A stretch of DNA of 64,000 nucleotides from Klenkia soli. Lineage in GTDB: Bacteria; Actinomycetota; Actinomycetes; Mycobacteriales; Geodermatophilaceae. The notes under the pieces are model-generated. The model did no database searches. It was given only the letters and a program-made list of their open reading frames with translations, and was not told where the DNA came from. The number at the start of each line of letters is the position of its first letter. Position 1 is the first letter of the stretch. A program made the position numbers and the translations under genes. Where the stretch lies: assembly GCF_900103975.1 (NCBI RefSeq), contig NZ_FNIR01000003.1, positions 310,001 through 374,000 on the forward strand, read 5' to 3'. Positions 21,028-37,609 of this stretch are shown piece by piece.

Positions 21028-22128
21028 ATGACCGACAGCACAGTGGTCCCGTTCCGCGTCGAGGTGCCGCAGGCGGAGGTCGACGACCTGCGTGACCGGC
21101 TGGCTCGCACCCGGTGGGCACCGGAGCAGGACCTGGACGGCGACCGCGGCGTCGAGACCGACCTGGTGCGCCGGCTGGCGCAGCGGTGGGGCGGGGAGTG
21201 GGACTGGCGGGAGCACGAGGCCGCGCTCAACCGCTTCGACCAGGTCACCACGACCGTCGACGGCACCCGCCTGCACGCGCTGCACGTGCGGTCGGCCCGG
21301 CCGGACGCCCCGGTGCTGGTGCTGCTGCACGGCTGGCCGGGCTCGGTCGTGGAGTTCCAGCAGGTGGTCCAGCCGCTGGCCGAGACCATGCACGTCGTGG
21401 TGCCGTCGCTGCCCGGCTACGGCTTCTCCGGCCCCACCCCCGACGGCGGCTGGACGTCGCAGCGCATGGCCCGCGCGGTGGCCGAGCTCCTGGCCCGGCT
21501 GGGGCACGACAGGTACGCCGTGCACGGCGGTGACTGGGGGGCGCGGGTGGCGCGCGACCTCGCCGTCCTGGACCCCGACCACGTCGCCGGGATCCACGTG
21601 ACGATGACCAACGGCCTGGAACCGGCGGACGGCGGTGACGAGCGGGCAGCGGCGCGGGCGAAGCGCCAGGCCGAGGAGCTGTTGGGCTACATGAAGACGC
21701 AGGCCACCAAGCCGCTGTCGCTGGCCTACGGGCTCACCGACTCCCCAGTCGGCCAGCTGGCCTGGATCGCGGAGCGGTTCCGGGACTGGACCGACCCGGC
21801 GTCGGACGTCTTCGGCCCCGGCACGGTGGACCTGGTCCTGGCCAACACGGCCGTCTACTGGTTCACCCGCACGGCCGGGTCGTCGTCCCAGCTGTACTGG
21901 GAGCGCCGCATGCACCCCGCCGACGAGTGGTCGCGCACCGTGCCCACCGCGGTGTGCGTGCTGCCGCACGACCTCCGGCTGCCGGTGCGCACGGCCGTGG
22001 AGCCGGCGGTGGACCTGGTGTCGTGGACCGAGCTGCCCCGCGGTGGCCACTTCCCGGGCATCGAGGTCCCCGTCCTGCTCGTCGCCGAGCTCCGCCGCTT
22101 CGTCCACGAGGACCTCCCCGCCCACTGA
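21028..22128 (+). CDS. epoxide hydrolase (EHN-type alpha/beta hydrolase)
   Basis: This 366-residue enzyme starts with the epoxide-hydrolase N-terminal helical region (FRVEVPQAEVDDLRDRLARTRW) and continues into the alpha/beta fold. Catalytic features: oxyanion motif HGWPGS, nucleophile Asp169 in HGGDWGARVAR, lid tyrosine candidates near VYWFTRTAGSSSQLYWE, and catalytic His341 in RGGHFPG. It would open an epoxide by water addition; the physiological substrate is unknown. It lies just outside the left boundary of the integrated island. Confidence 0.92.
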   Translation: MTDSTVVPFRVEVPQAEVDDLRDRLARTRWAPEQDLDGDRGVETDLVRRLAQRWGGEWDWREHEAALNRFDQVTTTVDGTRLHALHVRSARPDAPVLVLLHGWPGSVVEFQQVVQPLAETMHVVVPSLPGYGFSGPTPDGGWTSQRMARAVAELLARLGHDRYAVHGGDWGARVARDLAVLDPDHVAGIHVTMTNGLEPADGGDERAAARAKRQAEELLGYMKTQATKPLSLAYGLTDSPVGQLAWIAERFRDWTDPASDVFGPGTVDLVLANTAVYWFTRTAGSSSQLYWERRMHPADEWSRTVPTAVCVLPHDLRLPVRTAVEPAVDLVSWTELPRGGHFPGIEVPVLLVAELRRFVHEDLPAH

Positions 22129-23197: not shown

Positions 23198-23548
23198 TCA
23201 GTCGGTGAGCTGACGCGTCGTTGCTGGATCGGTAGCCGCCTGATCGGTGCGCATGAGGACGGGCTCGCCGAAAGTGTTGTGGTGGGTGCCGGGTACGACG
23301 CACCGCTGGGCGACTCGTTGCCAGGCTGCGTAGTGGGGTGCGGCGCGATGTTCGGTGTAGAAGGCGTGCTCGTCGAGGTAGACCTCGTGGAGGAAGAACC
23401 GGAAGGGTTCGTCGCGTCGGCGGTGGACGTCAAAGCGCAGGCAGCCGGCTTCGTCGCGTAGGGAGGCGCGTGCGTTGGCCCGGATGCCAGTGATGAATTC
23501 GTCCATGTGTTCGGGGTGGATGGTCAGGTCGACCAGCACGGTGAACAT
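23198..23548 (-). CDS. LsrG-like antibiotic-biosynthesis-monooxygenase fold protein 1
   Basis: This 116-residue ABM-fold protein has FTVLVDLTIHPEHMDEFITGI, ANARASLRDEAGCLRFDV, FFLHEVYLDEHAF and HRAAPHYAAW. The pattern is closer to LsrG, the isomerase of phosphorylated autoinducer-2, than to heme or quinol monooxygenases. In this cluster an isomerase or decarboxylation-assisting role on a phosphorylated sugar acid is plausible but unproven. Its ATG shares one base with the aldolase stop (TGATG). A paralogue sits at 29791 in the other arm of the cluster. Confidence 0.85.
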   Translation of the reverse strand: MFTVLVDLTIHPEHMDEFITGIRANARASLRDEAGCLRFDVHRRRDEPFRFFLHEVYLDEHAFYTEHRAAPHYAAWQRVAQRCVVPGTHHNTFGEPVLMRTDQAATDPATTRQLTD

Positions 23549-24189
23549 CAGCGGGTGCCAGCGCGCAGCCGATCGGCCTGCTCGCGGGTCAGCGGCCGGG
23601 TGGGGTGGCCGGACAGCAGCAGGAACAGCTTGGCCGTCTCCTCAAGTTCCTCGATGGAGTCGGCTGCGGCGGCCAGGTCGGTGCCGGCGACGACGGGGCC
23701 GTGGTTGGCCAGCAGGAATGCCTTGTGGGTGGCCGCGGTCTGTTGGGCCAACGGTTCCAGGGTGAGGTCACCGGGTGCGTGGTAGGGCAGTAGCGGCAGG
23801 GTGCCCACGCGCATGACGTAGTAGGCGGTCAGTGGGGGCAGCAGGTCGTCAGGGTTGAGTCCGTCGAGGCAGGAGATCGCGACGGAGTAGGTGCTGTGCA
23901 GGTGCACGACGGCGTTGGCGTCGGGGCGGGCACGGTAGACCGCGGCGTGCAGGAACGCTTCCTTGGATGGCTTGGGCCCGTCGATGTGCTGGCCGGTGGT
24001 GTCGATGACCGACAGGTCGGTGAGCGCGCCGAGGCTGGCGCCGGTGGGGGTGATCAGGATTTTCTCCCCGGCTCGGACGCTGATGTTGCCGGTGCGCCCG
24101 AAGGTGAGCCGGCGGTGGAACAGCGAGGCCCCCAGGGCAATTACGTCGTCGGTGAGCCGGGCAGTGGGGTCGGTGGTGGGGTGTGTCAT
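23548..24189 (-). CDS. otnC: class II aldolase-family decarboxylase, OtnC-like
   Basis: This 213-residue class II aldolase/adducin-fold protein has FGRTGNISVRAGEKILITPTGASLG, PSKEAFLHAAVYRARPDANAVVHLHSTYSVA with metal-ligand histidines, and FLLANHGPVVAG with another. It directly follows an OtnK-type kinase gene (ATGA overlap), the arrangement of 3-oxo-tetronate 4-phosphate decarboxylase, which yields dihydroxyacetone phosphate and CO2. Assignment as OtnC rests on this pairing plus family similarity. Confidence 0.85.
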   Translation of the reverse strand: MTHPTTDPTARLTDDVIALGASLFHRRLTFGRTGNISVRAGEKILITPTGASLGALTDLSVIDTTGQHIDGPKPSKEAFLHAAVYRARPDANAVVHLHSTYSVAISCLDGLNPDDLLPPLTAYYVMRVGTLPLLPYHAPGDLTLEPLAQQTAATHKAFLLANHGPVVAGTDLAAAADSIEELEETAKLFLLLSGHPTRPLTREQADRLRAGTR

Positions 24190-25514
24190 GGGGTGGCTCC
24201 TTCCACAGCGCGCACGAGGAGATCGGGGCGTCCGAAGTTGCCGGACTTCAGCAACAGGGCCAGGTGGGGCTCGGTGGTGGTGTGGCACCAGGGGACGCCG
24301 GGGTCGGCTTCCGGGCCGACCAGCAGCGATCGCAGGCTCAACGCCTTAACGACGGCGCCGGAGGTCTCCCCGCCGGCGACGATGATGCGGCGGCGCCCCG
24401 CCTCGCGGGCATTGTTCGCCAGCGTGGCGAGGGTCGTTTCCAGGACGGTGGCGGTGTCGGGGCCCATCGCGGCCTGGCCCGCGGCGCGGGCATCGGCTGG
24501 CGCCGAGGCATAGATCAGTACTGCTGGCTCGCTCCGGTGCTTGTGCAGCCAGTCCTGGGCGCGGGTGAGCAGCTGGTGTGGGTCGGGGGTGAGTGCGGGG
24601 TCGAGCTGGTGGGCGGGCATGACCTCTCGGGCGCGGGCGACCTGCTCAAGGGTGGCCGTCGAGCAGCTGCCGGCCAGCACGAGTGCGGGACCGGCGGGCA
24701 GGTGGTCCTCGGTGGCGGCGCGGGCGGCGGTGCTGCGCAGGTGGGCGCCGAGCGCGCGGGCCAGACCAGCACCGCCGGTCAGCAACGGCCGATCGGCCAC
24801 TGCTGCGGCGAGCGCGGCCAGGTCGGTGTCGTCGGCGATGTCGGTGATTAGGTGCCGCACACCGGCTTCGGTGGCCTGCTGCAGTGCTGCGCGCACAGCG
24901 TCAGGTCCGGACCGCAGCTGCTGCAGGGGCAGGGCGGCGACCGGGTGCGGGGTCTGGCGGGCAAGCACTCGCACCAGGTCCGGGTCGGTCATCGGGGTCA
25001 GGGGGTGGTGAGCCATCGAGGACTCCGACAGGAGCTGGGACCCGACGAACAGGTGGCCCTGGTAGACGGTGCGGCCGTGTTCGGGGCTGGCCGGGCAGAT
25101 GATGGCCGGCGCGCCACCGACGGCGTCGAGCAGTGCGTCGGTGACCAGTCCGATGTTGCCGGCATCGGTGGAGTCGAAAGTGGAGCAGTACTTGAAGTAG
25201 AAGCGGGTGACGCCATGGTCGGCCAACCACCGCTGGGCCCGCAGCGACTGCTCGATCGCCTCAGCGGCGGGGATGGTGCGGCTCTTGAGGGCAACGACGA
25301 TCGCGTCGCAGTCGGGCAGGGCCATTTTCTTGATCGGGGTTCCGATGAGCAGCAGGACCTGCAGTCCCACACGTCGCAGCCCGGCGGCGACGTCGGTTGC
25401 GCCGGTGAAGTCGTCGGCCAGGCAGCCCAACATCGGATGGGCGCCCCCCGTCCGGCCCGCAGCTACTGCGGTGCTGGGCGCCGGGCCCGGGGCATCAGTG
25501 GGCGTTGATGTCAC
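24186..25514 (-). CDS. otnK: DUF1537-family kinase, 3-oxo-tetronate kinase-like
   Basis: This 442-residue protein has the DUF1537 N-terminal half (MLGCLADDFTGATDVA, DAIVVALKSRTIP, KYCSTFDSTDAGNIG, PASPEHGRTVYQGHLFVG) and the C-terminal nucleotide-binding half (ALVLAGSCSTATLEQV, IIVAGGETSGAVVKAL, LLKSGNFG). Members phosphorylate four-carbon oxo-acids with ATP at the 4-hydroxyl. Pairing with an OtnC-type decarboxylase indicates the tetronate/erythronate-type pathway, although the usual LtnD/DenD dehydrogenase and OtnI isomerase are absent here. Confidence 0.9.
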   Translation of the reverse strand: MTSTPTDAPGPAPSTAVAAGRTGGAHPMLGCLADDFTGATDVAAGLRRVGLQVLLLIGTPIKKMALPDCDAIVVALKSRTIPAAEAIEQSLRAQRWLADHGVTRFYFKYCSTFDSTDAGNIGLVTDALLDAVGGAPAIICPASPEHGRTVYQGHLFVGSQLLSESSMAHHPLTPMTDPDLVRVLARQTPHPVAALPLQQLRSGPDAVRAALQQATEAGVRHLITDIADDTDLAALAAAVADRPLLTGGAGLARALGAHLRSTAARAATEDHLPAGPALVLAGSCSTATLEQVARAREVMPAHQLDPALTPDPHQLLTRAQDWLHKHRSEPAVLIYASAPADARAAGQAAMGPDTATVLETTLATLANNAREAGRRRIIVAGGETSGAVVKALSLRSLLVGPEADPGVPWCHTTTEPHLALLLKSGNFGRPDLLVRAVEGATP

Positions 25515-26188
25515 CGGCGGTCCAGCTGGACGGCGATGGCCTCGGCAGCCAGGTGCGGAGGACTGAGCACCGGGATCGACACCGCCGCGGCCGCCGCTGC
25601 GACCGCGGGGCTGAGGGAGAACTGGCCGATGACGATGAGGTCGGCATCTGCCGCCGCGGCCTGGGCTGCGGTGGTGACGGCGTGCTCGAGGTCTGCCGGT
25701 CCCTGGCCGGGATTGACGACGGTCCCGGTGACCGTGGCCCCGGTCAGACCTTGGGTGTCCAGGTACTCGCCTAACCGGGTGTTGGTGTCGCGCACCGCGG
25801 TGGGGTTGGGGCTGAGCACCGCAATTCGTCCGGGCGCCAGCTCAACGACCCGGGCGAACAGCGCGTCGTCCGAGCCCAGGACCGGGATGGTCCAGTCGGC
25901 CGGGCTGTCTTGGACCACCGACCCGTACATCGAGCAAGTCAGCAGCACCGCATCGGCGCCACCGGCGGCTGCGTGGTCGATGAGGTGCTCCATCCGTCGC
26001 CGGAGCGGGTCGGTGAGCCCGCCGGCCTGCTCGGCCTCGGTGATCAGGCGGTCGTCGAGCAGGTTCCACAGCGTGGCGCCGGGGAACCTGTCGAGAAGAG
26101 CCCCCCGGGCCGGGGCCATGGCCGCCGGGGTCGCGTGGATCAGCGCCACCATGGGTGCGCCGGTGACTGGAGCGTTCGGGCTGCTCAC
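25511..26188 (-). CDS. Asp/Glu/hydantoin racemase-family protein
   Basis: This 225-residue protein has the racemase fold with two pseudo-symmetric cysteine positions; one is visible in LLTCSMYGSVVQD, while the second half has VIGQFSLSPAV, where the second cysteine of true racemases is replaced. That suggests an isomerase or other activity rather than a two-base racemase. GTG 26188 overlaps the dehydrogenase stop as GTGA and its own stop overlaps the kinase start, so it is embedded in the catabolic operon. The substrate is unknown. Confidence 0.75.
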   Translation of the reverse strand: MSSPNAPVTGAPMVALIHATPAAMAPARGALLDRFPGATLWNLLDDRLITEAEQAGGLTDPLRRRMEHLIDHAAAGGADAVLLTCSMYGSVVQDSPADWTIPVLGSDDALFARVVELAPGRIAVLSPNPTAVRDTNTRLGEYLDTQGLTGATVTGTVVNPGQGPADLEHAVTTAAQAAAADADLIVIGQFSLSPAVAAAAAAVSIPVLSPPHLAAEAIAVQLDRR

Positions 26189-27294
26189 CGGGTCGGCGCC
26201 CCGGCGGTTGCCTGCAGCTGGGGGGTGTTGATGTTGTCGGCCACTGCGTCGGCGAACTGGTCGGTGGTGGCCTGACCACCCAGGTCGCGGGTGCGTGCGC
26301 CGGGGTCGGCGATGGTCGCGTCCACCGCAGCCTCGATGGCGCGGGCGGCCTCGCCGAAGGCGGCCTGTCCGGTGCGGGTGCCCCACCAGGACAGCAGCAG
26401 CGCCGAGGACAGGATAAGGCTGGTCGGGTTGGCCACCCCCCGGCCGGCGATGTCGGGTGCCGATCCGTGGGCCGCGTTGGCCGCGGCGTGGTCGTCACCG
26501 ACGTTCAGCGCTCCGGCCAGGCCCAGGCCCCCGGCCAGTGCTGCGGCCTCGTTGGACAGGATGTCGCCGAACATGTTGGTGGTCAGCAGGACATCGAAGC
26601 GGTCCGGGCGCAGGTACAGGTCGGCAGCCATGGCATCGACGTCGATCTCGCGCCAGGTCACGTCGGGGTAGTCGGCGGCGACCTCGGCGACAGCGGCCAT
26701 GAACAGTCCGTCGGTGACCTGCAGGACGTGCCGCTTGCCTACCACGGTGACGTGGTTGCGACGCTGGCGTGCCTGCTCGAAGGCCACCCGGGCGATGCGC
26801 CGGGAGGCCGAGGTGGTGATCAGTCGCAGCGACATCGCAGTGTCGGGGGTGGGCCGGAACTCCCCGTAGCCCTCGAACAGGCTGCGGTCGGCGTAGAAGC
26901 CCTGGGTGTTCTCGCGCACGACCAGCACGTCGAGGCCCTCCCTGCTCAACGGGACCCCCGCGCGGTGGCGGGAGGGGCGCAGGTTGGCGTAGAGGTCCAG
27001 CCGCTTGCGGATGGTGCCGGGGATGTTGATCCCGCCCTCGCTGACCGGCGGGTAGGCGGTCATGCCGCCGGGGCCCAGGATGACACCGTCGGCGGCCAGG
27101 CAGGCGGCCACTGCGCTGTCGGGCAGGGTCGTGCCGCTGGTGGTCAGCGTGGCGACGCCGACCTGGTGGACGTCGAAGTCCAGGCCCAATCCGAACGCGG
27201 CGTCGGCGCGAGTGAGCACGGCCTGAGTGGCCCCGCTGATCTCTGGGCCGATGTCGTCGCCGGGCAAGAGGGCGATCTTCATGCCGTGCACCAT
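26185..27294 (-). CDS. isocitrate/isopropylmalate dehydrogenase-family enzyme
   Basis: This roughly 369-residue protein belongs to the beta-decarboxylating 2-hydroxyacid dehydrogenases: IALLPGDDIGPEISGA, LDLYANLRPSRHR, VVRENTQGFYADRS, VTVVGKRHVLQVTDGLF, DVLLTTNMFGDILSNEAAALAGGLG and HGSAPDIAGRGVANPT. The substrate loop differs from LeuB and Icd and resembles tartrate/D-malate dehydrogenases, so it may oxidise the hydroxyacid entering this pathway. ATG 27294 is used; ATG 27282 is an alternative. It is first in the minus-strand operon, behind two GGTATACC operators. Confidence 0.87.
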   Translation of the reverse strand: MVHGMKIALLPGDDIGPEISGATQAVLTRADAAFGLGLDFDVHQVGVATLTTSGTTLPDSAVAACLAADGVILGPGGMTAYPPVSEGGINIPGTIRKRLDLYANLRPSRHRAGVPLSREGLDVLVVRENTQGFYADRSLFEGYGEFRPTPDTAMSLRLITTSASRRIARVAFEQARQRRNHVTVVGKRHVLQVTDGLFMAAVAEVAADYPDVTWREIDVDAMAADLYLRPDRFDVLLTTNMFGDILSNEAAALAGGLGLAGALNVGDDHAAANAAHGSAPDIAGRGVANPTSLILSSALLLSWWGTRTGQAAFGEAARAIEAAVDATIADPGARTRDLGGQATTDQFADAVADNINTPQLQATAGAPTR

Positions 27295-27358
27295 CGTGGG
27301 TCCGCCGTTCGCGTCGGGAGGCCTCACCTCTACTGGATGAGCACGCTCCATCTGTATG

Positions 27359-27377
27359 GGTATACCAAAGGTATACC
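27359..27377. promoter_or_regulatory. double GGTATACC operator upstream of catabolic operon
   Basis: Two perfect GGTATACC palindromes (27359-27366 and 27370-27377), 11 bases start to start, lie between the dehydrogenase gene and the GntR gene. A CATACA -10-like element on the minus strand (27353-27358) abuts them. The same core occurs in the GntR/transporter promoter at 28146-28159, so this is very likely the GntR binding site. Confidence 0.7.
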
Positions 27378-27418
27378 GGATAGGAGTTGGGCACACCACT
27401 CCCAGGGCGGGCGGGGCA

Positions 27419-28123
27419 CTACTGGACGAGAAGTTCGGTGTTGCTGTCCAGCAGTCGTCGGAAGATGGAGCTCGCGACGTGCTGGAGGTGCTCGACCATC
27501 GCAGCGGCGGCCTCCTCGGCCTGGCCGTCAAGCACGGCCTGGCACATGCGGATGTGTTCCCCGATGGACTCCTGCAGCCGTGAGGTGTCGGCATGGGCGA
27601 TGTGCCGCAGTCGGGCGCTGTGTGGGCGCAGCTCGAGGATGGACCGGCTGAGGTACTCGTTCGGTGCATGGTCGGCCAGCAGGGCATCGAACTGCCCGGT
27701 GGCGGCTGTAAAAGCCTCTTGGAACGCCGGCGAGTACTCCTGGCCCTTCAGGCGGCCGAAAGTGCTCAGCAGTGTTTCGATGGCCTGTCGCAGGTCCCCG
27801 GCTCCGACCTCGCGGGTGGCCACCATGCTGATGGCCACCGGCTCCAGGACCTGCCGGAACTCGAACAGCTGCCGCGCACTGCGCAGGGAGATCCGCGAGA
27901 CCATCGGTGCCCGGCGCGGTTCCAGGTCGATGAGCCCTTCTGCGGCCAGCCGTCGTACTGCCTCGCGCACCGGGGTGCGCGAGGCGCCGGTGTAGGCGAC
28001 CAGTTCGGTCTCGGGCAGCGTGCGCCCGGGGGCGAGCACTCCGGACACGATCTCTGCACGCAGCTGGACGTAGACCTGGTCGGCCTTGCCCAGGCGAGCA
28101 CCGTCGGTCACAACAACCGTCAT
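27419..28123 (-). CDS. GntR-family (FCD type) regulator
   Basis: This 234-residue regulator has an N-terminal winged helix (about 12-78: VYVQLRAEIVSGVLAPGRTLPETELVAYTGASRTPVREAVRRLAAEGLIDL) and a C-terminal all-helical FCD ligand domain with metal-ligand histidines in the RLRHIAHAD and IGEHIRMC regions. It sits between the two arms of the sugar-acid catabolic cluster and is divergent from the transporter. Palindromes of the GTATAC type on both sides suggest it represses both arms and itself until a pathway acid is bound. Confidence 0.92.
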   Translation of the reverse strand: MTVVVTDGARLGKADQVYVQLRAEIVSGVLAPGRTLPETELVAYTGASRTPVREAVRRLAAEGLIDLEPRRAPMVSRISLRSARQLFEFRQVLEPVAISMVATREVGAGDLRQAIETLLSTFGRLKGQEYSPAFQEAFTAATGQFDALLADHAPNEYLSRSILELRPHSARLRHIAHADTSRLQESIGEHIRMCQAVLDGQAEEAAAAMVEHLQHVASSIFRRLLDSNTELLVQ

Positions 28124-28139
28124 GGCCGGATCCTAATGG

Positions 28140-28168
28140 TTGCCAACAGGTATACCTGTCTGCATACT
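28140..28168 (+). promoter_or_regulatory. transporter promoter with operator in the spacer
   Basis: TTGCCA (28140-28145) and CATACT (28163-28168), 17 bases apart, make a reasonable -35/-10 pair. The palindrome ACAGGTATACCTGT (28146-28159) fills the spacer. A repressor there would block RNA polymerase directly. The core GGTATACC matches the double operator at 27359-27377. Confidence 0.65.
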
Positions 28169-28211
28169 CACCCGGACCAGTGAGGCAGACCACTCCCCTG
28201 AGAGGGCAACG

Positions 28212-29696
28212 ATGCTCGTATTCCTAGGCTTCGCGATGATCGCGGTGTTCCTGTACTTGGTGATGGCCAAGAAGGTCACCCCCATCGCCACGCTGATCCT
28301 GGTACCAGTGGTGTTCGGGATCGTGGCCGGCGCCGGCCTGAGCATCAGCGACATGGTGGTGGAATCGCTGCTGAACCTGGCCCCGACTGCTGGGCTGCTG
28401 TTCTTCGCGATCATCTTCTTCGGCACCATGATTGACGTCGGCCTGTTCGATCCGCTGATTCGGCTCATCCTCAAGTCGGTGGGCAACAGCCCCACCAAGC
28501 TGGTGATGGGCACCGCGCTGCTGACCACCATCGTCAGCCTCGACGGCGACGGGTCGACGACGTTCATCATCGTGACCTCGGCGTTCCTGCCGCTCTACCT
28601 GCGGCTGGGCATGAGCCCGGTGACCCTGACCGTCATCGCGGCCATGAGCAACGGCGTGCTCAACACCGTGCCCTGGGGCGGTTCTACCTCCCGGGCCTCG
28701 GCCGCGCTCAACGTCTCCCCCATCGACATCTTCGTGCCGATGATCCCCTCGATCGTCGCCGGCCTGGCCACGGTCATGGTGCTGGCCTTCTTCCTGGGCC
28801 GACGTGAGTCACGACGTCTGGGTCAGCTGGAGCTCACCGACTCCTCCCCCGGCCTGCTGCGCCGTGCCCGGGCTGACAGCAACGAGGACACCAACGGCGG
28901 CGTGACCGTCGGCGCCCCGGTCGGCGGCGGCGATGCCACCGGTGGCGCCACTGCCGGCAGCCCCGCCGGCGGCGGCACCCGCGAAGCCCGGGTTCCCCAG
29001 GGCTCCTCAGTGGTCATCACCAACGACTTCGCCGCCCCGGTGTCCGAGGACGGTCAACACCTCATCGACCGGCCCAACGCCCGCCCCAAGCTGATCTGGA
29101 TCAACCTGGTGCTCACCCTGGCCGTGATGACGATCCTCGTGGTCGACATCATCGAGCCGGTCCTGATCTTCATGGTCGCCGCCGCCACGGCGCTGGTGCT
29201 GAACTTCCCGAAGGTCCAGGAGCAGTCCGCCCAGATCAAGGCGCACGCCAGCTCGGTCATCTCCGTGGTCGGCATGGTCTTCGCCGCCTCGGTGCTCACC
29301 GGCGTGCTGTCAGGCACCGGCATGGTCGATGCGATGGCCAACTGGCTCGTCGACATCATCCCCGCCGCGCTCGGGCCCTACCTGCCCATCATCGCCGGCG
29401 TCCTGAGCATCCCGCTGACGTTCATCATGACCAACGACGCGTTCTACTTCGGGGTCCTGCCGATCTTGTCCCAGACCGCGGAGTTCTACGGCATCGCGCC
29501 CGTGGAGATGGCCCGGGCCTCCCTGGTCGGGCAGTCCCTGCACCAGTCCAGCCCGCTGGTGGCCTCCTTCCTGCTGCTCATCGGCCTGGCCAACGTCAGC
29601 CTGGGTGACCACTTCAAGAAGGTGATCTGGCGCGGCACGATCGTGGCGCTGGTGATGCTCGCCGTCGGCACGCTGTTCGCCTACCCCTTCGGCTGA
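28212..29696 (+). CDS. CitMHS-family carboxylate transporter
   Basis: This 494-residue transporter has about 12 membrane segments and CitMHS features such as VSLDGDGSTTFIIVTSAFLPLYLRLG, NTVPWGGSTSRASAAL and MTNDAFYFGVLPI. CitMHS proteins import citrate-metal complexes or related hydroxycarboxylates with protons. An unusual glycine-rich low-complexity segment of about 60 residues (within 205-290) expands the central cytoplasmic loop. ATG 28212 follows the GntR-controlled promoter. It is probably the uptake system for the acid degraded by this cluster. Confidence 0.92.
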   Translation: MLVFLGFAMIAVFLYLVMAKKVTPIATLILVPVVFGIVAGAGLSISDMVVESLLNLAPTAGLLFFAIIFFGTMIDVGLFDPLIRLILKSVGNSPTKLVMGTALLTTIVSLDGDGSTTFIIVTSAFLPLYLRLGMSPVTLTVIAAMSNGVLNTVPWGGSTSRASAALNVSPIDIFVPMIPSIVAGLATVMVLAFFLGRRESRRLGQLELTDSSPGLLRRARADSNEDTNGGVTVGAPVGGGDATGGATAGSPAGGGTREARVPQGSSVVITNDFAAPVSEDGQHLIDRPNARPKLIWINLVLTLAVMTILVVDIIEPVLIFMVAAATALVLNFPKVQEQSAQIKAHASSVISVVGMVFAASVLTGVLSGTGMVDAMANWLVDIIPAALGPYLPIIAGVLSIPLTFIMTNDAFYFGVLPILSQTAEFYGIAPVEMARASLVGQSLHQSSPLVASFLLLIGLANVSLGDHFKKVIWRGTIVALVMLAVGTLFAYPFG

Positions 29697-29701
29697 CCAC
29701 T

Positions 29702-29769
29702 CAGCCGGCGCTCCTGCGCCGGCTGGGTGCTGCCCCTGCCGGCCGCCTGCCCACCGCAGGCGGCCGGCA
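29702..29769. terminator. two tandem strong hairpins after the transporter gene
   Basis: CAGCCGGCGC/GCGCCGGCTG (29702-29725, 4-base loop) and TGCCGGCCGCCTGC/GCAGGCGGCCGGCA (29737-29769, 5-base loop) are perfect stems of 10 and 14 bp. Neither is followed by a T-run. They may terminate part of the transcription or protect the transporter mRNA 3' end, lowering expression of the enzymes downstream. Confidence 0.55.
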
Positions 29770-29790
29770 CTACGACTCTCTGGAGACACC

Positions 29791-30102
29791 ATGTTCAGCC
29801 TGATCGTGCACCTGCACGTCGACCCCGCCGGCCGCGAGGAGTTCCTGGCCGCGATCACCGTCAACGCACAGGCCTCGGTCCGCGACGAGCCCGGCTGCCA
29901 GCGCTTCGATGTCTGCTCCGTCGACGGTGACCCCGACCGGTTCGTCCTCTACGAGCTCTACGACGACGCCGAGGCCTTCGCCGCCCACAAAGCCGCCCCG
30001 CACTTCGCCGACTGGCGCGCGGTGGCCTCCCGCGTCGTGCTCGAGCAGAACAACACCCCCGGCCAGCTGCTGGCCACCAACACTTCGGAGGTCACCGCGT
30101 GA
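29791..30102 (+). CDS. LsrG-like antibiotic-biosynthesis-monooxygenase fold protein 2
   Basis: This 103-residue paralogue of the 23198-23548 protein has FSLIVHLHVDPAGREEFLAAI, NAQASVRDEPGCQRFDV, FVLYELYDDAEAF and HKAAPHFADW, again closest in pattern to LsrG. The two copies sit in opposite arms of the same cluster, suggesting paired or hetero-oligomeric function, or two related substrates. It overlaps the cupin gene by GTGA. Confidence 0.85.
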   Translation: MFSLIVHLHVDPAGREEFLAAITVNAQASVRDEPGCQRFDVCSVDGDPDRFVLYELYDDAEAFAAHKAAPHFADWRAVASRVVLEQNNTPGQLLATNTSEVTA

Positions 30103-30563
30103 GCACCCCCACCACCCCCGGCGCGCAGCCCACCAACCCCTGCCTGGTCCTGCGCCCGCAGGAGATCAACCGCTTCGACCGCGGCAACGGCGTGGTCACC
30201 CTGCCCTTCGTCGGCAAGTGGAACACCCCGGCGAACGAGACCAACCGCGTCACCACCGGCATGACCGTCTTCTCCCCAGGCACCGGTATCCCTTTGCACT
30301 CCCACAACGTCGAGGAGACCGTCCTGGTCTTCGAAGGCGAGGCCACCGCCGTCATCGGCGACGAGGAGTTCGAGCTCACCGCCGGGCAGGCCACCTGGGT
30401 GCCCGCCGGCATCCCGCACTGTTTCCGCAACCGCGGCACCGACACCATGACCATCTACTGGGTGTACGGCGGACGCGACATCACCCGCACCGTCACCGCC
30501 ACCGGCGAGACCTTCACCCACCTGTCCGAGTCCGACCGCGGCGCCACCCCCGCCGCCAGCTGA
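30099..30563 (+). CDS. cupin-domain protein
   Basis: This 154-residue single-domain cupin has the two conserved motifs: GTGIPLHSHNVEETVLVFEGEATAV (metal-ligand His, His, Glu) and ITLTAGQ-like AGQATWVPAGIPHCFRN with the last His. It may be a metal-dependent isomerase, epimerase or dioxygenase acting on the sugar acid. The GTG start overlaps the LsrG-like gene stop. The 91 bases to the next gene contain a good ribosome site (AAGGAG) but no clear terminator. Confidence 0.85.
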   Translation: MSTPTTPGAQPTNPCLVLRPQEINRFDRGNGVVTLPFVGKWNTPANETNRVTTGMTVFSPGTGIPLHSHNVEETVLVFEGEATAVIGDEEFELTAGQATWVPAGIPHCFRNRGTDTMTIYWVYGGRDITRTVTATGETFTHLSESDRGATPAAS

Positions 30564-30654
30564 CCTGCCGGTCACCGGTCACCACGGTGACCCACCCGCC
30601 CCGACGCCGCCACCGGCCCGGCGCCGACGAACCCAGCCCCAAGGAGCGCACCCC

Positions 30655-32067
30655 GTGACCACGGTCGTCACCATCAACCCCGCCACCGGCGAGGAACTCA
30701 ACCGCTACCCCACCCACGACGACGCCGAGATCGAAGCCATCCTCGACCAGGCCGTCACCGCCCAGCGTCAGTGGGCCGCGCTGTCCCTGGCCGAGCGGGC
30801 CACCGTGCTGCGCCAGACCGCGCAGCTGCTGCGCGCCGACAGCGCCGACCTGGCCCGGCTGATCACCCGGGAGATGGGCAAGCCGCTGGCCGAGGCCACC
30901 GCCGAGGTCGAGAAGTGCGCGACCGCCTGCGACTACTACGCCGACAACTCCGACCGCATCCTCGCCGACGAGCCGGTGGCCACCTCTGCTGACCGCAGCT
31001 GGATCAGCTATGAGCCCATCGGCGTGGTGCTGGCCGTCATGCCGTGGAACTTTCCGCTGTGGCAGGTGCTGCGCTTCGCCGCCCCCGCCCTGATGGCCGG
31101 CAACGCGGCACTGCTCAAGCACTCACCCAACACCACCGGCTCCGCGCTGGCCGTGCAAGACATCCTGGACCGCGCCGGGGTCCCAGCCGGCCTGTTCACC
31201 GCCCTGGTCATCGCCGAGCCCGACGTCCCCGCCGTCACCTCCCGGCTGATCGCCGACCCGCGCATCGGCGCGGTCACCGTCACTGGCAGCGAGCGCGCCG
31301 GCACCGCCGTCGGCGCAGCCGCCGGCCGCGCGGTGAAGAAGTCGGTGCTCGAACTGGGCGGCAGCGACCCCTTCGTCGTACTCCCTGACGCCGACGTGCC
31401 CGCGGTCGTGGCGATGGCGGTCAAGGCCCGGTACCTCAACGGCGGCCAGTCCTGCATCTCGGCCAAGCGGTTCATCGTCGACGCCTCCATCGCCGACACC
31501 TTCACCGCCCAGCTCGTCACCGCCGTGGAAGCCCTCGTCGTCGGCGACCCCGAGGCGCCAGGCACCGAGGTCGGCCCGATGGCCCGCGCCGACCTCGTCG
31601 ACGGGCTGCACGCCCAGGTCGAGGCCTCCGTCGCCGCCGGCGCCACCCTGGCAACCGGCGGCAAGCCCCTGGGCGGCGCGGGCAACTTCTACGCCCCCAC
31701 CGTGCTCACCGACATCACCCCCGGCATGCCCGCCTACGACGAGGAGATCTTCGGCCCCGCCGCCGCGGTCATCGTCGTCGACGGCGACGACGACGCCGTC
31801 CGGGTCGCCAACGACACCCGCTTCGGCCTGGGTGCCAGCGTGTGGACCGCCGACCCTGACCGGGGCCTGGCCGTCGCCCGCCGGATCCGCTCGGGTGCGG
31901 TGTTCATCAACGCCGTGGTCGCCTCCGACGTGCGGATGCCCTTCGGTGGGACCGGAGTCTCCGGCTACGGCCGGGAGCTGGCCGCCGCCGGCATGCGCGA
32001 GTTCGTCAACACCCGCACCTACTGGCTACTCGACGAGCCCGCCAGCACCGCCCCGGTCTCGGAGTGA
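30655..32067 (+). CDS. NAD(P)-dependent aldehyde dehydrogenase (succinate-semialdehyde type)
   Basis: This 470-residue ALDH has VLAVMPWNFPLWQVLRFAAPALMAGN, the general base Glu in VLELGGSDPFVVLPDAD, the nucleophile Cys in NGGQSCISAKRF and the C-terminal MPFGGTGVSGYGRE. It is closest to the YneI/GabD group of semialdehyde dehydrogenases. In this pathway it would oxidise an aldehyde intermediate. GTG 30655 is preceded by AAGGAGCGCACC. Its stop overlaps the next gene start as GTGA. Confidence 0.93.
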   Translation: MTTVVTINPATGEELNRYPTHDDAEIEAILDQAVTAQRQWAALSLAERATVLRQTAQLLRADSADLARLITREMGKPLAEATAEVEKCATACDYYADNSDRILADEPVATSADRSWISYEPIGVVLAVMPWNFPLWQVLRFAAPALMAGNAALLKHSPNTTGSALAVQDILDRAGVPAGLFTALVIAEPDVPAVTSRLIADPRIGAVTVTGSERAGTAVGAAAGRAVKKSVLELGGSDPFVVLPDADVPAVVAMAVKARYLNGGQSCISAKRFIVDASIADTFTAQLVTAVEALVVGDPEAPGTEVGPMARADLVDGLHAQVEASVAAGATLATGGKPLGGAGNFYAPTVLTDITPGMPAYDEEIFGPAAAVIVVDGDDDAVRVANDTRFGLGASVWTADPDRGLAVARRIRSGAVFINAVVASDVRMPFGGTGVSGYGRELAAAGMREFVNTRTYWLLDEPASTAPVSE

Positions 32068-33161
32068 CCGCCATGACCACCACCCAGAACACCCCCGCCG
32101 GCACCGCGGCTACTGACCGCATCGACCGCAGCGAGCTGGTCGACTTCGCCGCCGGCATACTCACCGCCCTCGACGTCCCCGACGCCGACGCCCACCTGGT
32201 CGCCGACAGCCTCGTGCAGGCCGACCTATGGGGGCACTCCTCCCACGGCCTGCTGCGGCTGCCCTGGTACGCCGCCCGGCTGCGCAGCGGCGCCATGACC
32301 GCCGCCACCGCCCCCGAGACCGTCGCCGATACCGGTGCGCTGGTCGTCCTGGACGGCCATCACGGCATTGGACAGGTGCTCACCGACCGCGCTCGCACTC
32401 TCGCCGTTCAGCGGGCCCGCGCCCACGGCGTCGGCATGGTCGGGATCCGCAACTCCAACCACTTCGGCACGGCCATGTACTTCACCCGTGCCGCCGCCGC
32501 CGAGGGCTGCGTGGCGATGCTGACCACCAACGCCAGCCCCGCGATGGCCCCCTGGGGTGGCAACCAGAAGATCCTGGGCACCAACCCGTGGTCCATCGCT
32601 GCACCGGCCCCCGACGGCAAGGTCGTCGCCGTCGACATCGCCAACACCGCGGTGGCCCGCGGGAAGATTTACCTGGCCAAGAACCGCGGCGAGACCATCC
32701 CCGACACCTGGGCGCTCAGCCCCGACGGCGCCCCCACCACCGACCCCGCCGAGGGCGTGCTCGGGGTCATCCTGCCGATGGCCGGGCACAAGGGCTACGC
32801 CATCACCTTCATGATGGACGTCATCTCCGGCGCCCTCACCGGCAGCGGCGTCGGCACCCAGGTGCACGGGCCCTACGAAGCCGACCAGCACAGCAACTGT
32901 GGGCACCTGTTCCTGGCCGTCGACCCCGCCGCCTTCGGCGACGTCGCCGGCTACCACGCCCGCGTCGGGGAGCTCATCAACCAGGTCAAGGACGTCCCGC
33001 TGGCCCAGGGCTACGACGAGGTCTTCTACCCCGGTGAGCTCGAGGACCGCACCGAGGCCACCAACCTCGCCGCCGGCGGGGTGGCCCTCACCGCCCAGAC
33101 CCGCCAGGAGCTGCAGCAGCTCGCCACCCAGCTCGGTCTGCCGACCGGCGTCAGCGGCTAA
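32064..33161 (+). CDS. malate/L-lactate dehydrogenase (Ldh_2) family protein
   Basis: This 365-residue NAD(P)-dependent 2-hydroxyacid dehydrogenase of the non-Rossmann Ldh_2 family has DLWGHSSHGLLRLPWY, VGIRNSNHFGTAMYFTRAA, NPWSIAAPAP and MAGHKGYAITFMMDVISGALTGSG. Relatives act on malate, sulfolactate, ureidoglycolate or 2,3-diketogulonate. GTG 32064 overlaps the ALDH stop; ATG 32073 in frame is an alternative. It is last in the plus-strand arm of the catabolic cluster and is followed by the 47-bp island repeat and a strong hairpin. Confidence 0.92.
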   Translation: MTAMTTTQNTPAGTAATDRIDRSELVDFAAGILTALDVPDADAHLVADSLVQADLWGHSSHGLLRLPWYAARLRSGAMTAATAPETVADTGALVVLDGHHGIGQVLTDRARTLAVQRARAHGVGMVGIRNSNHFGTAMYFTRAAAAEGCVAMLTTNASPAMAPWGGNQKILGTNPWSIAAPAPDGKVVAVDIANTAVARGKIYLAKNRGETIPDTWALSPDGAPTTDPAEGVLGVILPMAGHKGYAITFMMDVISGALTGSGVGTQVHGPYEADQHSNCGHLFLAVDPAAFGDVAGYHARVGELINQVKDVPLAQGYDEVFYPGELEDRTEATNLAAGGVALTAQTRQELQQLATQLGLPTGVSG

Positions 33162-33348: not shown

Positions 33349-34404
33349 TCAGAACAACTCGCCGATGGCCTGATCGCTGGAGTCCAGGTAGCGCTCGCGC
33401 TGCTTGGTGCCGAACGGCCCGTACGGGTAGTCGTTCGGGGTGGGGGCGCTGACCTCGTCGAGACGGGCGGTTTCCTCAGCACTCAGTGTCAGGTCACCGG
33501 CGACGAGGTTCTGCTCGAGCTGGTGCAGCGTGCGGGCACCGATGATCGGGGCGGTCACGCCGGGCCGGTTGGTCACCCAGCTGTAGGCGACCTGGCCCGA
33601 GGTGACGTCGTGTGCCGCAGCGACCTCCCGGACGACGTCCAGGGTGGCCCAGTTCTGGTCCTTGGCGGCGAGGTCACTGAAGATGTGCTCGTTCATCGGG
33701 TTGCCGGCCCCGGCGCGGGTGTCGGTTCCGGCCTGCTCGCCCTTGCGGTACTTGCCGCTGAGGAACCCCGACGCCAGCGGGGACCAGGGCAGAAGGCCCA
33801 GGCCGTTGTGCAGCGCAGCCGGCACGATCTCGTACTCGATCTCACGTGAGACCAGGCTGTACTGCGGCTGCAGCGTCACCGGCACCGCCAGGCCCAGGGC
33901 GCGGGCGGTGCTGACGGCGAGCTGCACCTGCCATCCGGTGAAGTTCGACAACCCGACGTGGAGCACCTTGCCGGCGCGCACGGCGTCGTACAGGGCCCGC
34001 AGGGTCACCTCGATCGGGGTGAGCGCATCCCAGCCGTGCAGCTGGTAGAGGTCGACGGTGTCCCTGCCGAGTCGGCGGAGCGAGGCGTCCAACGCGCGGG
34101 TCAGGTTGCGCCGCGAGGTGCCGGCCTCGTTGGTGTCCGGCCCGGTGCCGAAACGGGCCTTGGTGGCCAGCACGACGCGGTCGGTGACCTCGGCGGGGCG
34201 GCTGGCGAACCAGCGGCCCAGCAGCTCCTCCGACGTCCCGGCACCGTAGACGTTGGCGGTGTCGACCAGGTTGCCCTCGGCCTCGACGAACCGGTCGAGG
34301 ATCGCGAAGGCCTCGGCCTCATCGGTCTCGGTGCCGAAGCCCATGGTCCCCAGGGCGAGGTTCGAGACGGCGATGCCGGTCCCGGGCAGCAGGCGGTACT
34401 GCAT
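33349..34404 (-). CDS. aldo/keto reductase 1
   Basis: This 351-residue NADPH-type TIM-barrel reductase has the tetrad Asp and Tyr in NLVDTANVYGAGTSEELLG, Lys in VLATKARFG, the family segment VDLYQLHGWDALTPIE, and GLSNFTGWQ. ATG 34404 has AAGGAG 7 bases upstream. It lies 32 bases behind the SDR gene on the same strand, so the two probably share the MmyB-type operator at 35295-35312. The substrate is unknown. Confidence 0.93.
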   Translation of the reverse strand: MQYRLLPGTGIAVSNLALGTMGFGTETDEAEAFAILDRFVEAEGNLVDTANVYGAGTSEELLGRWFASRPAEVTDRVVLATKARFGTGPDTNEAGTSRRNLTRALDASLRRLGRDTVDLYQLHGWDALTPIEVTLRALYDAVRAGKVLHVGLSNFTGWQVQLAVSTARALGLAVPVTLQPQYSLVSREIEYEIVPAALHNGLGLLPWSPLASGFLSGKYRKGEQAGTDTRAGAGNPMNEHIFSDLAAKDQNWATLDVVREVAAAHDVTSGQVAYSWVTNRPGVTAPIIGARTLHQLEQNLVAGDLTLSAEETARLDEVSAPTPNDYPYGPFGTKQRERYLDSSDQAIGELF

Positions 34405-34436
34405 GGTGGAGCTCCTTGTTGGTAGGTCGTGGGGGG

Positions 34437-35204
34437 TCAGGCCTGCGAGGTGGGCATGGCCCACAGCTCGGCGATCGATGACCGGCGGGGGCGGGTCACC
34501 ATGTAGGCGATGGACTCTGCGATGTCCTCGGGCTGCAGCCGCTCGGGGATGTTCTCGGCGTCGGAGGCGGCCAGCTGGTCCTGCACGGCCTGGTTGTTGC
34601 GGGAGACCAGCTCGGTGGCCACTGCGCCGGGCTCCAGGACCCCGACTCGCACGTGCTTCTGGGTGACTTCCTGGCGCAGGGCCGAGGTGAAGCCCTGCAC
34701 GCCGAACTTGGTCATGCTGTAGACGCCGAACTGGGGGTAGGCCTCACGGCCGGCGATGGAGGAGACGTTGACGATGTCGGCGACCCCGCGCAGGTCGTCC
34801 TCGGCGGCGGCGAGCAGGTGCGGCAGGGCGGCCTTGGTCAGGTAGAGCAGGCCCTTCTGGTTGACCGAGATCATCCGTTCCCACTCCTCGACGTCCTGGT
34901 CCAGGACGGTGCCCAGCAGCATCAGACCGGCGTTGTTGACCAGGACGTCGAGCCGGCCGAACCGGTCGAGGACGGTCTGCACGACGGCCTCGGCCTGCGC
35001 ACGGTCGCCGATGTCTGCGGCCACAGCGAACGCGGTGCCCCCGGCGGCCTCGATGGTGGCGACCACGGTGTCGAGCCGGTCCGCGCGGCGGGCGACGACG
35101 GCGACGCTGGCGCCGAGGGCGGCGAGCTCCCTCGCGGTGGCCTCCCCGATGCCGCTGCTGGCACCGGTGACGATCGCGACGGTCTTCTCTAGTGGGGAGG
35201 GCAT
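34437..35204 (-). CDS. short-chain dehydrogenase/reductase 1
   Basis: This 255-residue classical SDR has TGASSGIG (cofactor), NNAG, catalytic Ser in NVSSIAG and YSMTK with Tyr and Lys. The C-terminus is typical of the family annotated as NADP(+)-dependent serine/3-hydroxyacid or clavulanate-like reductases. ATG 35204 was chosen at the start of the family-like sequence. It is first of a two-gene unit with the aldo/keto reductase, 90 bases from the shared operator. Confidence 0.93.
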   Translation of the reverse strand: MPSPLEKTVAIVTGASSGIGEATARELAALGASVAVVARRADRLDTVVATIEAAGGTAFAVAADIGDRAQAEAVVQTVLDRFGRLDVLVNNAGLMLLGTVLDQDVEEWERMISVNQKGLLYLTKAALPHLLAAAEDDLRGVADIVNVSSIAGREAYPQFGVYSMTKFGVQGFTSALRQEVTQKHVRVGVLEPGAVATELVSRNNQAVQDQLAASDAENIPERLQPEDIAESIAYMVTRPRRSSIAELWAMPTSQA

Positions 35205-35294
35205 GTGCGGGGGCTCCGTCCGGTGACGGCCTGGGGGTGTCCCTGGGCTCATGTCCAGTGGACGCCGGACCTGGGCTGCGTGGCAGAGCCTGTC

Positions 35295-35312
35295 GAGAGG
35301 GGGTACTGACAG
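35295..35312 (+). promoter_or_regulatory. MmyB-type operator, site A
   Basis: GAGAGGGGGTACTGACAG is identical over 18 bases to site B (37592-37609) and close to site C (39471-39487). It lies between divergent SDR1 and the metallophosphoesterase gene. As in the other sites, the oxidoreductase gene is transcribed from the opposite strand to the motif reading given here. Confidence 0.7.
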
Positions 35313-35329
35313 GGTCTGTCTTGCGACTG

Positions 35330-36496
35330 GTGCTCTGCCGGACCGTCGGCTGGGTGTCCGCACTGGTCTTCTACGCATTGCTCGCTGCCGTCCTGATCGG
35401 CGCGCTCGCGCTGTTGTGGGTGCGGCTGGTCCGGGACACGACGAGGCCGGGGTGGGTCCGTCGGACCGCCACGGTCGTGCTGGTGCTGCTGATGGCGAGC
35501 TCGGTCGCTGCCGATGCCGGGCGTCAGGTGTTTCCCAGGCAGGCGCAGCAGCCGTTGGACGTGGTGGGCTTCGGTTGGCTGGGTGCGTTGGTCTACCTGG
35601 TGCTGGCGCTGGTCGTCCTGGAGCCGGTGCGGTGGTGGCTGCGCCGACGCATCGCGACATCGGGCCCCGCCGAGGAGGTCGACGTCTCTCGCCGGCTGTT
35701 CCTGTTGCGGTCTCTGGCAGTCGGCGCCGGGGTCATAGCAGCGGGCACGGTCGGGTACGGCACGTGGGCGGCGGCCGCCCCGCCGGTCATCCGGCGGGTG
35801 CGCATCGCCGTCCCGGGTCTGGCCCCGGAGCTCGCCGGCTACCGGATCACGACGTTCTCCGACGCGCACCTGTCCTCCCTGTACGGCAGGGACCGGTTCG
35901 CTCGACTGGTCGGCATGGTCAACACCACCGAGCCCGACGTGGTTGCCGTCGTCGGGGACCTCGTCGACGGTTCGGTCGCCGACCTCCGGCGCGACGTGGC
36001 GCCTCTGGGCGACCTAGCCGCCCGGGACGGCGCGTTCTTCGTCACCGGCAACCACGAGTACTACGTGGACACCGCCGAGTGGATGGCGCACCTGCCCACG
36101 CTGGGGGTCGACGTGCTGCGCAACGAGCGGGTGACCCTCTCCCGCGGGGCGGGGTCCTTCGACCTCGCCGGCATCGATGACGCGACCGCCGGGGGTTCAG
36201 GGGTCCGCGGGCACGGCGCGGACCTGACCGCGGCACTGGCGGGCCGGGACGCCACCACCCCGGTGGTGCTGCTGGCCCACCAGCCGGTCCAGGTCGAGCA
36301 GGCCCGTGCTGCCGGGGTGGACCTGCAGCTGTCCGGGCACACCCACGGCGGTCAGCTGTGGCCCTTCCCGTACCTGGTGGGTCTCGAGCAGCCGGCGGTG
36401 CAGGGTCTGTCCAGGCACGGTGACACCCAGCTGTACGTCACCGCCGGGGTCGGGTACTGGGGCCGCCGATGCGGGTCGGGGCCCGGCCCGAGCTGA
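35330..36496 (+). CDS. membrane-anchored metallophosphoesterase, frameshifted C-terminus
   Basis: This roughly 388-residue protein has three or four N-terminal transmembrane helices and an extracytoplasmic calcineurin-like phosphoesterase domain: TFSDAHLSSL, VVGDLVDGS, GNHEYY, LAHQP and SGHTHGGQLWP. It resembles YkuE/Rv-type phosphohydrolases. The end reads GYWGRRCGSGPGPS and stops, whereas the next frame reads PPMRVGARPELTVIEL, the usual family ending. One missing G in the run at 36459-36462 would explain this. The start is uncertain: GTG 35330, TTG 35321 and GTG 35354 are in frame. Confidence 0.82.
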   Translation: MLCRTVGWVSALVFYALLAAVLIGALALLWVRLVRDTTRPGWVRRTATVVLVLLMASSVAADAGRQVFPRQAQQPLDVVGFGWLGALVYLVLALVVLEPVRWWLRRRIATSGPAEEVDVSRRLFLLRSLAVGAGVIAAGTVGYGTWAAAAPPVIRRVRIAVPGLAPELAGYRITTFSDAHLSSLYGRDRFARLVGMVNTTEPDVVAVVGDLVDGSVADLRRDVAPLGDLAARDGAFFVTGNHEYYVDTAEWMAHLPTLGVDVLRNERVTLSRGAGSFDLAGIDDATAGGSGVRGHGADLTAALAGRDATTPVVLLAHQPVQVEQARAAGVDLQLSGHTHGGQLWPFPYLVGLEQPAVQGLSRHGDTQLYVTAGVGYWGRRCGSGPGPS

Positions 36497-36532
36497 CCGT
36501 CATCGAGCTCCGCAGGGCTGCGGGCACATCGG

Positions 36533-37513
<981 letters not shown>

Positions 37514-37591
37514 GTCGTGCTCCTGACGGGTCGATCGGTCGCGGTCGTCCGCGACGATGCTCGCCCGTGCCATCAGGAGGCAGCCCCTGCT

Positions 37592-37609
37592 GAGAGGGGG
37601 TACTGACAG
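37592..37609 (+). promoter_or_regulatory. MmyB-type operator, site B
   Basis: GAGAGGGGGTACTGACAG lies 41 bases ahead of the MmyB regulator 1 start and 79 bases ahead of AKR2 on the other strand. It is an exact 18-base match to site A. The position suggests control of the reductase and autoregulation. Confidence 0.72.

Follow-up and report, generated by a model that had tools for sequence, protein, structure and literature searches.

The 64,000-nucleotide stretch of the Klenkia soli genome analysed here (contig NZ_FNIR01000003.1, positions 310,001 to 374,000; hereafter the window) carries eleven genes within its positions 23198-33161, arranged as two divergent operons with a GntR/FCD regulator gene at the divide. 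The minus-strand operon encodes an isopropylmalate-dehydrogenase-like (IPMDH-like) protein, a racemase-fold protein, the kinase OtnK, OtnC and the LsrG-like protein ABM1, and the plus-strand operon a CitMHS permease, a second LsrG-like protein (ABM2), a cupin, a succinate-semialdehyde-dehydrogenase-like (SSADH-like) aldehyde dehydrogenase (ALDH) and an Ldh_2 dehydrogenase (Table 1). With start codons of our own choice, genes overlap by 1-4 bases at six of the eight within-operon junctions, comprising all four junctions of the minus-strand operon and two of the four of the plus-strand operon, the latter two by 4 bases each. An earlier note, made from the letters alone, had listed this gene set, and every gene that it named was found in its place.

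OtnK and OtnC exceed their curated NCBIfam equivalog cut-offs and CitMHS passes the cut-off of its subfamily. The IPMDH-like protein, the ALDH, the Ldh_2 protein (solved relatives 1vbi and 2x06) and ABM1 score below every curated equivalog cut-off compared and are called at family level only; ABM2 was scanned against Pfam only.

Table 1. Genes and candidate operators of the two divergent operons (positions in the window).
Feature	Position	Strand	Evidence
ABM1, LsrG-like ABM protein, proposed OtnI replacement	23198..23548	-	Pfam ABM 69 bits; LsrG model 55 bits
OtnC	23548..24189	-	NF043034 263.5 bits, cut-off 250; Pfam Aldolase_II
OtnK, 3-oxo-tetronate kinase, DUF1537 family	24186..25514	-	NF043035 504.5 bits, cut-off 350; SBD_N, NBD_C
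Asp/Glu-racemase-fold protein, one conserved Cys, proposed C2 epimerase of 3-oxo-tetronate	25511..26188	-	Pfam Asp_Glu_race
Isocitrate/isopropylmalate-dehydrogenase-like protein (IPMDH-like), proposed entry oxidation of a malate-type substrate	26185..27282	-	Iso_dh
Palindrome GGTATACC, operator candidate 1, before IPMDH operon	27359..27366		one of 3 genome copies
Palindrome GGTATACC, operator candidate 2, before IPMDH operon	27370..27377		one of 3 genome copies
GntR/FCD regulator	27419..28123	-	Pfam GntR, FCD
Palindrome GGTATACC, operator candidate 3, divergent GntR/CitMHS promoter	28149..28156		one of 3 genome copies
CitMHS citrate:proton symporter family permease	28212..29696	+	TIGR00784 461.7 bits, cut-off 259.7
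ABM2, second LsrG-like ABM protein, Ldh_2/ALDH/cupin module	29791..30102	+	Pfam ABM 72 bits; aligned with LsrG
Single-domain cupin	30099..30563	+	Cupin_2
Succinate-semialdehyde-dehydrogenase-like ALDH	30655..32067	+	PRK09406 539 bits, below cut-off 730
Ldh_2 family dehydrogenase (sulfolactate/ureidoglycolate/malate type)	32064..33161	+	sulfolactate dehydrogenase model 295 bits, below cut-off 500

The palindrome GGTATACC is present three times in the 4.76-Mb draft genome, each time in one of the two promoters beside the GntR gene, and the three copies in the window stand against 0.03 expected from shuffled sequences. As these copies, unique in the genome, sit in the promoters of both operons, the two operons very probably respond to one signal and would form one regulon. 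A sigma-70-like site (28140-28168, 9/12) overlaps the third copy. In Rhodococcoides kyotonense (L033; L and G numbers label loci and genomes) each of the three equivalent intergenic stretches contains the core GTATAC, accounting for 3 of the 5 sites of that locus, and in Rhodococcus opacus (L127) both equivalent stretches do, these being the only two sites there; the stretches of both loci were delimited only after the GTATAC sites had been seen.

A probable tetronate route with a non-standard front end

OtnK and OtnC imply a 3-oxo-tetronate route, as the earlier note had proposed, and the window OtnC matches only Aldolase_II and not the F_bP_aldolase type in a Pfam scan. The note had also described the usual LtnD and OtnI as missing, a claim that complete, co-regulated genes elsewhere in the genome would have undone. 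A search of all 25 contigs of the draft genome, whose listed completeness is 99.98%, found no OtnI above the cut-off, the best match reaching 179 of 325 bits, and the best LtnD match, obtained with E. coli YgbJ as the sole query and without a search for DenD, gave 97 bits at 28% identity. Both best matches are neighbouring genes adjoining a Gcl-like gene (L025, G000:C18:379001-399000), and since they are read by eye as hyi and glxR, the absence held. These hyi-, glxR- and gcl-like genes lie in what looks like a purine/allantoin region; here as in the other unannotated loci, genes (Gcl, Hyi, GlxR, TctABC, PGDH, PrpB-like) were identified by eye from their translations. The OtnI model gives only 244 bits, below the same cut-off, for the OtnI-type gene of L031. 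Overall, an OtnK/OtnC route to dihydroxyacetone phosphate (DHAP) with a non-standard front end is supported.

The place of LtnD/DenD is, we infer, taken by the IPMDH-like enzyme. Its closest solved sequence is homoisocitrate dehydrogenase 3asj, and in the alignment it keeps the Arg triad, Tyr and Lys, which we take to hold the malate part of the substrate, as well as two of the Asp residues that presumably bind Mg, the third being Asn. It forms a clade with the Rhodococcoides and Lichenicola enzymes (100/100), in which Lys-Ala-Asn reads Lys-Arg-His; the larger IPMDH group is found with tricarballylate, tricarboxylate-transporter and Ldh_2 genes. On the tartrate dehydrogenase model TIGR02089 the protein scores 216.7 bits, below the cut-off of 470.4. 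Given the retained Arg triad, Tyr and Lys and the citrate-type transporter, the substrate likely bears two carboxylates, as a hydroxy-(poly)carboxylate would. This part of the earlier note's suggestion of a hydroxy-dicarboxylate start therefore stands, and its example, a tartrate isomer, is not supported: by ordinary chemistry, IPMDH-type oxidative decarboxylation of tartrate leaves a C3 product (hydroxypyruvate or glycerate), so that tartrate cannot feed OtnK, and as a precursor of 3-oxo-tetronate it would need a carboxylate reduced to CH2OH, on which chemistry it was rejected. If the product is 2-oxo-tetronate, family chemistry would point to a 2-(hydroxymethyl)tartrate as the one simple precursor; the enzyme may instead oxidise a tetronate directly.

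Several further candidates were weighed. Citrate, isocitrate and hydroxycitrate had been considered on the strength of CitMHS and of the second aconitase and lactonases in related loci, and no known steps from them to 3-oxo-tetronate could be drawn; for itatartarate/2-hydroxyparaconate, on which papers exist, the drawable route ends one hydroxyl short. A search of the own genome for a PF10282-type lactonase, made with one query and without a positive control, found none. On plasmids, the loci L130, L131, L136 and L140 carry an IPMDH of the same family beside TcuA, TcuB, a PrpF-like tautomerase and tripartite tricarboxylate transporters.

For the isomerase step, the ABM proteins are the candidates. 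The closest solved sequence to ABM1 is LsrG (2gff, 4e-12), which also ranks first against its predicted structure (Z 17.2, root-mean-square deviation (rmsd) 1.4, 96 aligned, 30-34% identity), with a score on the LsrG equivalog model below its cut-off of 135 bits. LsrG isomerises P-DPD, a hydroxyketone phosphate, in autoinducer-2 degradation, according to an extract of PMC8016206; by analogy, this would be the same kind of step as the conversion of 2-oxo- into 3-oxo-tetronate. Among 83 loci, we compared the 51 that hold OtnK and OtnC (at limits of 150 and 100 bits) or Ldh2 and ALDH (150 and 300 bits), counting an ABM protein from 70 bits and an OtnI-family protein from 100 bits. An LsrG-like ABM alone occurs in 7 of them and an OtnI-family gene alone in 38, both together in none and neither in 6 (L020, L081, L085, L129, L143 and L133, the last having an ABM of another clade). 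In the remaining 32 loci, to which L125 belongs for want of OtnC, an LsrG-like ABM is found in 0 and an OtnI-family gene in 7. The own-genome loci, L112-L118, L148 and L149 stand outside this count; L148 (cut OtnC, Ldh2, ABM, cupin, ALDH) agrees with the exclusivity and L149 shows neither type.

The two families also exchange places in two gene orders. PGDH-OtnI-Race-OtnK-OtnC (Race denoting the racemase-fold gene) in 29 of 61 racemase loci corresponds to IPMDH-ABM1-Race-OtnK-OtnC in L033. Likewise, the order Ldh2-OtnI-like-ALDH of Ensifer (L134) and Sinorhizobium (L141) has its counterpart, Ldh2-ABM-ALDH, in Burkholderia (L126) and Robbsia (L128). On hydroxypyruvate isomerase/OtnI models, scores of 212-246 bits, below the cut-offs, were obtained for the TIM-barrel genes of L031, L134 and L139; for those of L051 and L078 an epimerase model comes closer. 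From the lack of co-occurrence in the 51 loci, the swaps of place and the likeness to LsrG we infer that ABM proteins replace OtnI-type isomerases, which is good circumstantial evidence and not proof. The open-licence papers searched gave no account of ABM or LsrG proteins acting as tetronate or hydroxypyruvate isomerases.

The racemase-fold protein had been noted to lack one catalytic Cys, which the alignments bear out: C85 and Q189 are invariant in all 31 aligned sequences (window plus 30 relatives), Q189 being the second catalytic position of Asp/Glu racemases with Gln instead of Cys. In another set of 32 rows C85 is again invariant, and L129 has His instead of the Gln. Comparison of its structural model (pLDDT 94.4) confirms the fold (Z up to 19.7, 213 aligned, rmsd 3.4). 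As the model matches glutamate, aspartate, hydantoin and allantoin racemases, arylmalonate decarboxylase and maleate isomerase alike at Z 15-20, the fold does not choose between functions. In 29 loci the gene lies between those of the isomerase and OtnK, a position suggesting that the protein sets C2 of 3-oxo-tetronate; a role as OtnI substitute was rejected for these 29 loci, which carry both.

Recurrence in other genomes

The earlier note regarded the enzyme set as peculiar, a view that the neighbourhood comparison does not sustain. A profile search with the racemase gave 61 named loci, and Rhodococcoides kyotonense L033 holds every part of the window set plus a lactonase, with identities to the window of 76% for IPMDH, 66% for ALDH and 65% each for CitMHS and Ldh_2. 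In genome G028 the genes are spread over two short contigs, one with IPMDH-Race-OtnK and the other with a cut OtnC, Ldh2, ABM, cupin and ALDH. In Dactylosporangium (L027) and Acrocarpospora (L028), IPMDH-Race-OtnK-OtnC-Ldh2-ABM is joined by an aconitase, the second copy of its genome. IPMDH, the racemase-fold gene and OtnK also come together on plasmids of Lichenicola (L125), Pantoea (L129) and Cupriavidus taiwanensis (L143), with OtnC in L129 and L143, amidohydrolases in all three, lactonases in L125 and L129, an aconitase in L129 and PrpF in L143. The L143 stretch itself shows IPMDH, racemase, cupin, ALDH, OtnC and an OtnK frame that may be cut, as it is short (921 bases) and adjoins a transposase. 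Ldh2, ABM, ALDH and cupin occur together without OtnK in L126, L127 and L128, and Ldh2, ALDH and IPMDH with tricarboxylate transporters in L133, L134, L139 and L141, accompanied by an OtnI-type gene in L134, L139 and L141, a cupin in L133, L134 and L139 and the other-clade ABM in L133.

With full and partial versions recurring in actinobacteria and on proteobacterial plasmids, the gene set is portable. Of 396 sampled genomes of the phylum, with the window genome among them, 11 have the racemase (E up to 0.001), 5 a close OtnK (E up to 1e-60), 10 the IPMDH (E up to 1e-75) and 4 Ldh_2 (E up to 1e-85). The open-licence literature searched yielded no description of the gene set.

Some observations are recorded for their own sake. 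The R. opacus plasmid pR1CP1 (L127, 7863-16874) has window-type Ldh2, ABM2, ALDH, cupin, CitMHS and GntR genes, with a lactonase and a CitE/RipC-like lyase where the window has IPMDH, OtnK and OtnC. L149 (genome G013) shows Ldh2, cupin, tripartite tricarboxylate transporter genes and a farther methylisocitrate-lyase-like gene, and no ABM, OtnI-family gene or OtnK was seen in its stretch. The window CitMHS protein contains a Gly/Ala-rich low-complexity stretch in its middle, and the family model matches it in two pieces. The flanks of the locus read by eye as a TetR regulator and an epoxide hydrolase (20074-22128) and as two aldo/keto reductases and a short-chain dehydrogenase (33349-37660).

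Proposed pathway, alternatives and known systems

Taken together, we favour, at about even confidence, a single regulon whose two divergent operons would break down a hydroxylated di- or tricarboxylic acid of a plant type via the tetronate route. The acid would be imported by the CitMHS permease and, as a malate-type substrate, oxidised by the IPMDH-like enzyme, probably with decarboxylation, to 2-oxo-tetronate. ABM1 would then shift the keto group from C2 to C3, the one-Cys racemase-fold protein would set the C2 configuration of the resulting 3-oxo-tetronate, OtnK would phosphorylate O4 and OtnC would decarboxylate the product to DHAP. Ldh_2, ABM2, the SSADH-like ALDH and the cupin constitute a second portable module, with ABM2 standing where other bacteria have an OtnI/Hyi-type isomerase; this module probably oxidises another stereoisomer or a second substrate fragment. 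A wider reading, put forward only tentatively, is that LsrG-like ABM proteins are a second, unrelated family of ketol isomerases taking over from OtnI/Hyi in acid catabolism across Actinobacteria and Proteobacteria, and that here, in a hitherto undescribed pathway, the IPMDH feeds a branched C5-C6 hydroxy-polycarboxylate, for example a lactone-forming acid of the 2-(hydroxymethyl)tartrate type, into the tetronate route to DHAP by oxidative decarboxylation. ABM proteins are often annotated merely as putative monooxygenases, and if one branch of them consisted of sugar-acid isomerases, genes in plant- and soil-associated bacteria would be re-annotated. The locus would also help to name the substrate of the recurring IPMDH-Ldh2-ALDH-cupin module, found with citrate-type and tricarboxylate transporters.

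A number of observations speak against the proposed pathway. Regarding the regulon, L033 has one further full GGTATACC elsewhere in its locus, and in L027, L028 and the proteobacterial loci the promoters looked at lack the operator. Regarding the substrate, the third metal-ligand Asp is Asn in the IPMDH clade of the window, L033 and L125, and the second aconitase, lactonases, amidohydrolases and tricarballylate genes of related loci misfit a plain tetronate. L032 holds IPMDH, Race, Ldh2 and aconitase in a genome without OtnK over the cut-off; the pair IPMDH and Race therefore does not feed OtnK in every case. For the isomerase, ABM proteins without assigned function (2omo, 3qmq, 3kkf) tie with LsrG within 1 Z, and the tree of the ABM proteins has weak resolution. 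For the exclusivity, the Fisher value of 1.5e-5 ignores relatedness and overstates independence, as 29 of the 38 OtnI loci share one actinobacterial gene order and were found through the racemase. In L134 and L141, Ldh2 has no more than 37% identity to the window protein. The Dactylosporangium genome of L027, with OtnK, OtnC and ABM, has no match above 46 bits to the OtnI model, a result that does not exclude a distant isomerase, because this model is insensitive to distant TIM-barrel isomerases and gives that of L051 only 43 bits. Finally, no LsrG-like ABM and no OtnI-family gene lies near the L125, L129 and L143 sets, for which reason another isomerase or none may serve there; their whole plasmids, searched without the chromosomes, gave no OtnI-model match.

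Among other explanations, it is unlikely, though conceivable, that the ABM proteins are true cofactor-free oxygenases or quinol monooxygenases and that the racemase-fold protein or the genome's own Hyi isomerises. SnoaB (3kg0), described as a cofactor-independent oxygenase, does match the ABM1 model at Z 14.8, the Hyi-like gene reaches the 179 bits given above, and L125, L129 and L143 manage without an LsrG-like ABM. However, ABM and OtnI-family genes exclude each other throughout the 51 loci and exchange places in two gene orders, LsrG ranks first by both sequence and structure, the racemase accompanies OtnI in 29 loci and so does not replace it there, and the L027 genome shows no OtnI-model match above 46 bits. 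We consider it slightly less likely again that several C4 acids, such as tartrates and threonate, both breakdown products of ascorbate, are degraded side by side, with OtnK and OtnC serving tetronates separately, IPMDH and Ldh_2 turning tartrates into C3 products and ABM2 converting hydroxypyruvate into tartronate semialdehyde for the ALDH. The IPMDH family includes tartrate dehydrogenase (3flk; compare the TIGR02089 score, itself below cut-off), OtnI/Hyi-type isomerases lie between Ldh2 and ALDH in L134 and L141, and the shown stretches of L126, L127, L128 and L133 carry Ldh2, ALDH and cupin but no OtnK, all of which would suit this view. Yet one genome-unique palindrome joins both operons, G028 has both gene groups, albeit on two short contigs, and supported branches part the window IPMDH from the D-malate dehydrogenase DmlA in a tree that contains no tartrate dehydrogenase.

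The least likely is a route free of any isomerase, in which the IPMDH-like enzyme would oxidise the C3 hydroxyl of a tetronate straight to 3-oxo-tetronate, a reaction like that of PdxA2 on phospho-threonate, with the Asp-to-Asn change suppressing decarboxylation. The Asn is found in the window, L033 and L125, all of them OtnK loci, the L125 stretch is devoid of ABM and OtnI-family genes, and the order IPMDH-Race-OtnK makes Race next in line. Against this, the same Asn occurs in L130 and L135, in whose stretches no OtnK is annotated, the Asp is kept in L027, L028, L019 and L129, the Arg triad is retained, and six of the nine loci with IPMDH and OtnK (window, L027, L028, L033, L051, L078) have an ABM or TIM-barrel isomerase-type gene, the other three being L125, L129 and L143.

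Compared with known systems, the proposed pathway is closest to that for L-threonate and D-erythronate (LtnD or DenD, OtnI, OtnK, OtnC), reportedly described by Zhang et al. in 2016; its L-threonate steps are set out in PMC12540250. The window shares its 3-oxo-type OtnK and OtnC (Aldolase_II) and the product DHAP; no LtnD or OtnI was found in its genome, and an IPMDH-like, a racemase-fold and an LsrG-like ABM protein and a citrate-type permease are present instead. Tetronate catabolism exists in a four-step and an OtnI-free three-step version, the latter, from 2024 work, with a 2-OtnC that carries an F_bP_aldolase domain, as an extract of PMC12540250 has it. The window likewise lacks OtnI; its OtnC, the only one scanned for the F_bP_aldolase type in this genome, has Aldolase_II alone. 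LsrG, the nearest relative of ABM1 by sequence and model, differs in that identity is 30-34%, ABM1 stays below the LsrG cut-off and no Lsr genes are among the genes seen. With the isocitrate, homoisocitrate, isopropylmalate and tartrate dehydrogenases the window IPMDH has the Arg triad, Tyr, Lys and two Asp in common, whereas it falls below every equivalog cut-off of that family and into its own clade with the Rhodococcoides and Lichenicola enzymes. The actinobacterial PGDH-OtnI-Race-OtnK-OtnC clusters have Race, OtnK and OtnC in the same order as the window, but a 2-hydroxyacid dehydrogenase and OtnI rather than IPMDH and ABM, and in several cases a GntP-like permease rather than CitMHS. What is known is thus the end of the route, the published OtnK/OtnC path, and what would be new are the proposed enzyme replacements at its front.

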